Source of the DNA: Terriglobales bacterium
GTDB taxonomy: Bacteria > Acidobacteriota > Terriglobia > Terriglobales > Acidobacteriaceae
Length of the DNA: 64,000 nt
Reading direction: 5' to 3'
Assembly (NCBI GenBank): GCA_035651655.1
Contig: DASRFG010000002.1
Span: 1-64,000 of the forward strand
The position numbers were made by a program, and so were the translations under genes. Every line of letters starts with the position of its first letter. Within the stretch, counting starts at the first letter, position 1. This document shows positions 22,806 through 59,495 of the stretch, piece by piece. The notes beneath the pieces were generated by a model. The model was not told the DNA's origin, did not search any database, and worked only from the letters and a program-made list of their open reading frames with translations.

Positions 22806-23786
22806 GTGGAGTGCATGCCTGATTGGTCCGCCCTCATTGAACAGCATGGATACTTGCTGATCGGCGCGGTGGCATTCTTAGAAGCCATTGGATTGCCCAT
22901 ACCTGCGTCGCTGGCATTGGTGGCGGCGGGGGCGGCGAGCGCCATGGGGGTGTTGCGACCCGGTGTGGTTATGGTGGTTGCAGTTCTAGCAATTGTTATT
23001 GGCGATACCCTGCTTTATTTGCTGGGCCGACGCACAGGGTGGTGGTTTTTGAACATCTTGTGCCGGGTTTCCATCAATCCCGAGAGCTGCGTTTTGCGCT
23101 CCGCGGAATCGTTCTACAAACGCGGAAAAGCGACCCTGGTAATCGCGAAGTTTATTCCGGGGATTAATACCATGGCTCCGCCGCTGGCCGGCAGCATGAA
23201 GATGGGTCCCCACCAATTTCTGTTGCTGGACCTGGCTGGAGCCTTTCTCTACGTGACGGTCTGCGGGGGCCTGGGGTTCATGTTTAGCGGATTTCTGGAG
23301 CTCCTTACGCGGAGTTTTCATACGGTTGGGAGAGGCGTCGAGTGGCTGCTCGTGGTGGGAGTAATCGGGTACGTTGGCTATTACGCGGTCCTCTTCTGGA
23401 AACACCGGGTATACCGGGTCGTGCCCCGAATCCAGGCGCAGGAGCTGGCGGAGAAGCTGGCGAGCGAGGCGGGGGAAAAGGTTATGGTGGTAGATGTGCG
23501 CAGTCAGGGTTACTACGACCACAATGCCTCTCGAATTCGCGGTTCGGTCAGGCTGGAGCCGAGCCAGTTGCGAAAGGCGATTCATGAACTGCCGAAAGAC
23601 AAGGAGATTTACGTTTACTGCACTTGAGTGCGGGAAGCGACCAGCGCCCGGGTGGCGCATAACTTGATCGAGCACGGATTCAGTGCCTATGTGATCGTGG
23701 GCGGACTCCGCGCCTGGAGCAAGGCGGGGTATCCGCTGGAGCCGGTACCGCCGGAAGACGTGGTTCTGCTGCCTACATTCAGTTAA
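22806..23786 (+). CDS. DedA-rhodanese fusion with an in-frame TGA (candidate selenoprotein)
   Basis: Without recoding the frame stops at TGA 23625-23627 after 273 residues; read through, it gives 326 residues to TAA 23784. Numbering is from the GTG at 22806; an ATG at 22815 is an alternative start. Residues about 1-200 are a DedA (SNARE-associated) membrane domain (FLEAIGLPIPASLALVAAG, then AKFIPGINTMAPPLAGSMKM). Residues about 215-320 are a rhodanese domain (VMVVDVRSQGYYDHNASRI). The strand IYVYC ends in the presumed catalytic Cys272, and the loop runs Cys-Thr-[TGA]-Val-Arg-Glu-Ala-Thr-Ser. Related fusions, as I recall them, have a CxC at this point, so the TGA replaces the second Cys. The downstream 52 codons finish the domain (GFSAYVIVGGLRAWSKAGYP). 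Either selenocysteine at 274 or a recent nonsense mutation explains this. Confidence 0.75.
23644..23658 (+). promoter_or_regulatory. Candidate bacterial SECIS hairpin
   Basis: GCGCC (23644-23648) and GGCGC (23654-23658) form a perfect 5-bp stem with the loop CGGGT, 21 nt after the TGA at 23625-23627. Bacterial SECIS elements lie inside the coding region just after the UGA and carry a G at the start of a small apical loop, which is met here by the second loop base. The hairpin is within coding sequence, so high GC alone could also produce it. Confidence 0.45.
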
Positions 23787-58874: not shown

Positions 58875-59495
58875 CTATCGGCCTGAGTTCTGCTGCGGGC
58901 TTCGCCGGCTGCGCAACCACAGGAAAATCATCGCCATAACCACCGCGGCTGCGATGACGAGATCTGCTCTCTTCAATATCTGGATGAGGGCGTCCCAGTG
59001 GCCCCCAAATACATAGCCCAAACTGGCGACTACCGTGACCCAGAGTGTGGCGCCTAGAAAATTGAAAAGTACAAACTTCCGCCAGGGCATTTCGAGGACG
59101 CCCGCCAAGGGACCGGCAAGGATGCGCATACCAAAAACAAATCGAGCGAAAAATACCGTGAATGTGCCATACCGCTGGAACAAGCGCTCTGCTTTCGCAA
59201 AATGCGCTTCAGAAACGTGGAAGAAGCGCCGGTGGCGCTCGAGCAAACGACGGCCACCGCGATGTCCGATGATGTAACCGAGATTGTCTCCCAAGGTTGC
59301 CGCGACGATTCCTACCAGGATTACGTAGGGCAGGCGCAAATTGTGCTCAGAAAAAGCAAGAAAGCCGGCCAAAAGAAGGACCGTCTCTCCAGGAACGGGG
59401 ACGCCGGCGTTCTCCAGCAGCAACATCACTGCCACCGTGAGGTAGCCGTGTTGGTTGAAGTGCTGCCGGAGGATTGCTAAAAGGTGTTCTCCCAT
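58875..59495 (-). CDS. DedA family membrane protein
   Basis: 206 residues. The SNARE-associated domain shows LENAGVPVPGETVLLLAGFL, GDNLGYIIGHRGGRRLL and ARFVFGMRILAGPLAGVLEM. About five hydrophobic segments are present. DedA proteins act in membrane homeostasis, and some flip undecaprenyl phosphate or phosphatidylethanolamine. Unlike the DedA gene at 22806 it has no rhodanese domain. It shares a strand and short spacings with the PGPGW gene and the hydrolase. Confidence 0.92.
   Translation of the reverse strand: MGEHLLAILRQHFNQHGYLTVAVMLLLENAGVPVPGETVLLLAGFLAFSEHNLRLPYVILVGIVAATLGDNLGYIIGHRGGRRLLERHRRFFHVSEAHFAKAERLFQRYGTFTVFFARFVFGMRILAGPLAGVLEMPWRKFVLFNFLGATLWVTVVASLGYVFGGHWDALIQILKRADLVIAAAVVMAMIFLWLRSRRSPQQNSGR

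Follow-up and report, generated by a model that had tools for sequence, protein, structure and literature searches.

An in-frame TGA, very probably read as selenocysteine, in an acidobacterial DedA–rhodanese fusion gene

An open frame beyond TGA

Is a gene that stops halfway through a rhodanese domain broken, or is its stop codon read as an amino acid? The question is raised by a DedA–rhodanese fusion in the window, that is, the whole 64,000-nucleotide stretch analysed here. Translation by the standard code would stop at a TGA, and the gene would thereby lose the second half of its rhodanese domain. A sequence-only reading had proposed selenocysteine (Sec) at this codon, and the observation from which it started was borne out: the TGA at 23625-23627 is in frame and is followed by 52 open codons up to a TAA. 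It stands two codons past the loop cysteine of the rhodanese domain, within YVYC-T-[TGA]-VREATS. The gene comprises the following features.

22808..22811, + strand: Shine-Dalgarno-like GGAG, 5' of the ATG at 22815 (read from the sequence)
22815..23786, + strand: full coding sequence of the DedA(VTT)–rhodanese fusion, 323 aa, with predicted Sec at residue 271 (from the sequence)
22899..23270, + strand: VTT (DedA) membrane domain (Pfam VTT_dom, 42.4 bits, cut-off 33.9)
23445..23723, + strand: rhodanese domain, spanning the TGA (Pfam, 43.1 bits; model compared with 3tp9_A)
23619..23621, + strand: codon of Cys269, the rhodanese loop Cys (aligned to the 3nta loop Cys; invariant)
23625..23627, + strand: TGA, predicted to be read as selenocysteine (Sec271; codon survey of homologues)
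23784-23786, + strand: TAA stop, 52 codons after the TGA

The VTT_dom match (PF09335; threshold passed) covers residues 32-155 of the GTG-numbered protein, and the rhodanese match (PF00581; cut-off 22.2) covers residues 214-306 and continues through the TGA. The ATG at 22815 is more likely to be the start than the GTG at 22806 because of the GGAG at 22808-22811 and the starts of homologues. A predicted model of the protein (pLDDT 86.4, pTM 0.73) contained the rhodanese fold, with Z 16.0 and an rmsd of 1.7 over 103 aligned residues of 3tp9_A.

Codon survey, selenocysteine machinery and hairpin

For the codon survey, the genome itself and its relatives (100 genomes) were subjected to a protein search and every listed full-length match was fetched. 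From the matches of a protein search in 396 genomes of the phylum, 20 further stretches were taken. Another 146 relatives came from scanning 84,980 species genomes with a pattern, and the best 80 of these were kept. The 186 loci read (66 + 100 + 20) stem from overlapping sets, with some genomes present in two collections. The aligned codon was TGA in 148 of these loci, a Cys codon (TGC/TGT) in 36 and a Ser codon in 2, and this distribution excludes a chance origin of the TGA. It also displays a strong pairing of Cys and TGA across genomes, which had been named as a sign of selenocysteine. Counted as distinct proteins (168), the numbers were 131, 35 and 2. Fusions made up 172 loci (138 TGA, 33 Cys, 1 Ser), which would constitute a natural Sec/Cys series, while 14 loci encode a rhodanese without a VTT match (10 TGA, 3 Cys, 1 Ser). 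As the sequence-only reading had stated, there are related fusions with CxC at this place: 33 of the 172 fusion loci have a Cys codon here, and so do all four proteobacterial fusions fetched. Among the best 80 of the 146 loci from named genomes, 75 had TGA and five had TGC; from this codon to the next stop we counted exactly 52 codons in 77 of the 80 and 53 codons in two, the last one being cut by a contig end. Acidobacterial titles are borne by 79 of the 80, and the exception, L120, is titled Gammaproteobacteria and may be a mis-named bin.

Purifying selection acts on the frame past the TGA just as it does on the frame ahead of it: the median dN/dS was 0.085 past and 0.090 ahead of the TGA in 329 pairs of close relatives with the TGA form, of which 324 were usable. 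Decay downstream of the TGA, the outcome against which the sequence-only reading had staked its claim, was not seen in these relatives. A quick-search tree of 154 proteins required 12 changes of the TGA label, with at least 6 of the 12 forced by well-supported branches; Sec and Cys have therefore been swapped repeatedly. In L183 (G039:C13) and L194 (G084:C53), which are perhaps inactive copies, a Ser codon (TCT and TCG, respectively) occupies the Sec/Cys position. An apparent second Sec in G280 and G306 ('2 TGA') was rejected, since the extra TGA lies at or behind the frame end, 44-48 codons past the Sec codon.

A search of the genome (4.07 Mb, 99.8% complete) for selA, selB, selC and selD, which had been suggested as a check, found all four.

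C7:64880-65989: SelA, 464 bits
C1:137873-139750: SelB, 358 bits, over the cut-off
C10:6064-6157: tRNA-Sec with anticodon tca (UCA), 66.8 bits
G000:C24:84020-84976 (L088): SelD, 361 bits; its frame contains one TGA

Because selD has an in-frame TGA of its own, SelD is probably a second candidate selenoprotein of this genome. SelA was detected in 78 of the 100 genomes. It was present in 43/43 genomes with a TGA fusion (our own included) compared with 7/24 genomes that have the Cys form only (p = 1e-10); SelA is thus absent from 17 of the 24, and seven SelA genomes still show only the Cys form. The other 33 of the 100 genomes had no full-length fusion among the matches listed. SelB exceeded the cut-off in 39/43 TGA-form and 7/24 Cys-only genomes, and remained below it in G023, G028, G035 and G056 (75, 96, 76 and 85% complete, respectively), of which G028 possesses SelA and tRNA-Sec. 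The genome holds another tRNA-Sec-like gene beyond the window (G000:C25:154857-154942, corresponding to L049:858-943, - strand; RF01852, 56.4 bits). Its anticodon loop reads CUUAUAA, and ARAGORN calls it tRNA-Ile (tat). It has a long variable arm, a long acceptor stem and a T stem of 4 bp, and is in this similar to allo-tRNAs that have been described for Acidobacteria (PMC7609411, available part).

A candidate SECIS element was located downstream of the TGA.

23644..23658, + strand: bSECIS hairpin GCGCC-CGGGU-GGCGC, arms 23644-23648 and 23654-23658, loop 23649-23653

The 5-bp GC hairpin with a G-bearing loop, which had been placed 21 nt past the TGA, is indeed there, 21 nt being the distance to the loop; the stem begins at 16 nt. 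According to the legend of Fig. 2 in PMC13188914, bSECIS elements have a loop of 3-9 nt, a stem of 4-16 bp, a G in loop positions 1-2, a UGA-to-loop distance of 16-37 nt and an MFE of at most -7.5. The hairpin in the window (stem 5 bp, loop 5 nt, G at loop position 2, 21 nt, -9.1 kcal/mol) lies within all of the constraints quoted there, as had been anticipated. When the 48 nt were folded in isolation (z-score 0.67), another structure had a lower energy than the hairpin, whose pair probability was ~0.41. The hairpin became the minimum-energy fold (-9.1 kcal/mol) only when at least the first 14 nt (UGA + 11) were omitted; with 9 or 12 nt omitted, another fold beat it. The energy of the whole region gave a weak signal in clade A, to which the window's gene belongs (mean z -0.42 for TGA forms versus -0.06), a clearer one in clade B (-0.94 versus -0.02), and p = 0.003 when all fusions were pooled.

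This energy test was replaced by a position-specific pair count, with synonymous shuffles drawn from the gene's own codons and the hairpin scored at a fixed distance from the TGA. In the first set, all five pairs were formed in 97/100 distinct TGA sequences, where the shuffles predicted 6.4, and in 2/35 non-TGA sequences, where they predicted 1.1. The enlarged set gave 108/118 distinct TGA sequences versus 2/37 others (Fisher p = 2.6e-23); ten TGA sequences fell short of the full stem, nine with four pairs and one with three. A G at loop position 2 occurred in 118/118 TGA sequences versus 14/37 others. Where the encoded peptide SARVA was identical, five pairs were found in 83/85 TGA versus 0/7 non-TGA sequences. 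A compensatory change from G-C to A-U was observed in the clade of L026, L028 and L029 (GCACC/GGTGC), and the same pair change in the single-domain relative L188; in all of these, the encoded amino acids on both sides change along with the pairs. RNAalifold kept 4/5 pairs with a small covariation term (-0.13), and an alignment pair count found 97.6% of cells paired and two pairs changed on both sides, a number that a +1 slide of the alignment likewise produces. Run against the genome itself, a SECIS model returned one clear site, namely this hairpin (E 1.2e-11; next 0.09). The codon survey, dN/dS, the hairpin and the sel genes support the selenocysteine reading of the TGA, and what looks like a stop-broken gene is very probably an intact acidobacterial gene. 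Of the 14 fetched loci for rhodanese proteins without a VTT match, ten (L085-L087, L185-L191) have TGA at the same place; in these ten single rhodaneses the SECIS stem is nearly identical in sequence despite a different peptide, which is SASLA, not SARVA, in 6/10.

Rhodanese loop and membrane domain

Cys269 aligns with the loop Cys of the rhodanese domain 3nta and the predicted Sec271 follows two residues on, giving the CxU motif C269-T-U271. The active-site loop of rhodanese sulfurtransferases is CxxGxR. This motif is absent here, as Glu274 (Asp in 4/62) occupies the position of the 3nta Arg. In the membrane domain, four positions distinguish the fusion from stand-alone DedA proteins.

23061..23063, + strand: Cys83 codon; invariant in aligned fusions, not Cys in 20 stand-alone DedAs
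23088..23090, + strand: Cys92 codon; invariant in aligned fusions, not Cys in 20 stand-alone DedAs
23148..23150, + strand: Lys112 codon; Arg in 19/20 stand-alone DedAs
23166..23168, + strand: Asn118 codon; a second Arg in 19/20 stand-alone DedAs

Cys83, Cys92 and Lys112 were found in 62/62 aligned acidobacterial fusions and in 4/4 proteobacterial ones (4 fetched of 16 matches, on plasmid records), while residue 118 is Asn, Ser, Gly, Ala or Thr and in none of the 62 aligned or 4 added fusions Arg. The 20 stand-alone stretches, taken from those matches of the genome and its relatives that were limited to the VTT part, have Arg at both 112 and 118 in 19 cases (the exception, L226, has Lys and Asp), Glu at 32 in 18/20 and Cys at 83 or 92 in 0/20. 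Two such basic residues have been reported as essential in YghB (PMC10127716, available part); from the motif, Arg130 and Arg136 of YghB would correspond to positions 112 and 118. The fusion shares the VTT domain with the DedA flippases YghB and UptA, and its Glu23 (61/62 fusions) and Asp64 (62/62) are like those of most stand-alone DedAs. In contrast to these flippases, it lacks the Arg pair in the motif of the second re-entrant helix, and has the Cys pair and the rhodanese. A Foldseek search with the model of the VTT domain gave no solved relative at E <= 0.001. The window itself contains a stand-alone DedA (58980-59456, - strand), a paralogue of the fused domain with the Arg pair and without the Cys pair.

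An excess of positive charge in residues 72-110 (K+R 7 versus D+E 2) and 192-206 (4 versus 0) suggests that these parts lie on the cytoplasmic face, and from the positive charges ahead of it the rhodanese domain is probably cytoplasmic as well. From the presence of the Cys pair and the loss of the Arg pair relative to stand-alone DedAs, we infer that the domain in the fusion has ceased to be a standard flippase and that a single thiol/selenol set is made up of Cys83/Cys92, Cys269 and Sec271. Since the fused DedA has an invariant Cys pair and no Arg pair, the protein is probably a membrane-tethered thiol/selenol sulfur-relay protein, a function deduced from residue patterns.

Taken as a whole, we are highly confident that the locus is best explained by an intact selenoprotein gene with SECIS-directed Sec271, a putative VTT–rhodanese relay and a probable loss of flippase activity. 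The ribosome would read UGA 23625-23627 as Sec with the help of SelB and tRNA-Sec(UCA), insertion being directed by the short SECIS hairpin at 23644-23658, and the product would carry, behind its VTT/DedA membrane domain, a rhodanese with the loop Cys269-Thr-Sec271. Cys269 would take up sulfane sulfur or become oxidised and Sec271 would resolve it through a Se–S bond, which would make the rhodanese a persulfide/disulfide reductase or a sulfur-transfer relay. The partner thiols of the rhodanese loop would be Cys83 and Cys92, which probably lie on that same face, and the membrane domain probably no longer works as an undecaprenyl-phosphate flippase. More tentatively, and as less likely than not, we consider that DedA–rhodanese fusions might form a separate, non-flippase membrane system that channels or relays sulfane sulfur, sulfite, thiosulfate or selenium oxyanions, built on a DedA scaffold minus the phosphate-binding Arg pair plus Cys83/Cys92 and equipped with a CxU loop, with Sec speeding the process in acidobacteria that have selenium machinery.

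Alternative readings and known relatives

A nonsense mutation from TGC to TGA, leaving a dying gene and a truncated DedA protein, would be compatible with the window taken alone, and relatives do carry TGC here. Its probability is nevertheless vanishingly small, given TGA in 148/186 loci, 52 codons kept in 77/80, a dN/dS of 0.085 past the TGA and a hairpin held against synonymous drift; pseudogene decay was discarded in view of the codon survey, dN/dS and the hairpin. That UGA is decoded by some other suppressor, or as Cys by a tRNA-Cys of the selC* type, is very improbable. Such selC* tRNA-Cys with a UCA anticodon has been described in other phyla, and the available part of the same source lists it for four phyla, with Acidobacteria not among them (PMC7609411). 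Against Cys decoding also stand the presence of SelA, SelB and SelD, a UCA tRNA that fits the tRNA-Sec model with 66.8 bits, and SelA in 43/43 TGA-form genomes. Sec insertion generally competes with termination, which counts for a programmed stop yielding a short DedA form and a long Sec form in a ratio set by selenium supply; the membrane domain would be complete in the short form too. The 36 Cys-codon loci, however, have no stop here, and we regard programmed termination as distinctly unlikely.

The fusion could also be an undecaprenyl-phosphate flippase under redox regulation by its rhodanese, and the VTT domain does score above the Pfam cut-off. Upstream of the fusion, 81 loci revealed genes that we take to be MetRS-like (54), TatD-like (53), YajQ-like (39) and polyprenyl-synthase-like (56), nearly all on the fusion's strand, with some contigs too short to show them; the polyprenyl-synthase-like gene in 56/81 loci would suit a flippase. 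None of the four lies upstream at the window's own locus, where the lack of a polyprenyl-synthase-like neighbour speaks against this role and the fusion sits between what are presumably an ABC-transporter permease-like gene and a SAM hydrolase-like gene. Overall, the gene neighbours across the 81 loci gave no pointer to function. COG0586 DedAs, a group to which rhodanese fusions also belong, have been proposed as UndP flippases (PMC10127716, available part). Lys112 and the lack of Arg118 in 62 + 4 fusions, as opposed to Arg/Arg in 19/20 stand-alone DedAs, nonetheless make a flippase unlikely.

CxU rhodanese selenoproteins have been listed as NF041203, 'form 3, CxU' (PMC13188914, available part), and as 'COG0607 form 2, CxU' (PMC9312934, available part). 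NF041203 (rhodanese_LYCAU, rhodanese-related (seleno)protein) shares the Sec two residues past the loop Cys, but its model is one 126-residue domain, whereas here a VTT domain precedes the rhodanese and the loop reads YCTU. With 97.9 bits (model positions 14-124), our protein fell short of the curated cut-off, which is set at 115; of seven relatives, five fusions reached 73.5-93.9 bits and two single domains 112.8 and 107.3 bits. The expectation of an unusual selenoprotein is to be toned down, as the CxU rhodanese without a DedA part is already listed as NF041203. The same two domains in the same order are found in 'DedA family protein/thiosulfate sulfurtransferase GlpE' (COG0586-PF00581; Xanthomonas sacchari WP_043095768.1), and fusions of this type share Cys at four positions and Lys112 but have Cys, not Sec, at 271. 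The YeeE/YedE thiosulfate transporter and the TsoB rhodanese/DsbD-like selenoproteins (PMC13188914, available part) likewise have Sec in a protein of membrane-transport or rhodanese type, but belong to other families and would be alike in role only.

In the main texts of that part of the open-licence literature which was covered, no DedA/VTT protein with Sec came to light, and the available parts of PMC13188914, PMC9312934, PMC12013277, PMC5029168, PMC2398784 and PMC1088965 name no DedA or VTT selenoprotein. For one acidobacterium, deep-Sep gave three known and no new selenoprotein genes (PMC12013277, available part). While the CxU rhodanese domain alone is known, the Sec-containing DedA fusion, present in many acidobacteria, is apparently new and would add a membrane-fused architecture to the rhodanese selenoproteins. 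Acidobacteria are common in soils, and their selenoproteins are little studied in the searchable literature. The role of DedA–rhodanese fusions has been called unclear (PMC10127716, available part); since a few residue positions split the thiol-bearing DedA subfamily from the flippases, this role becomes directly testable.
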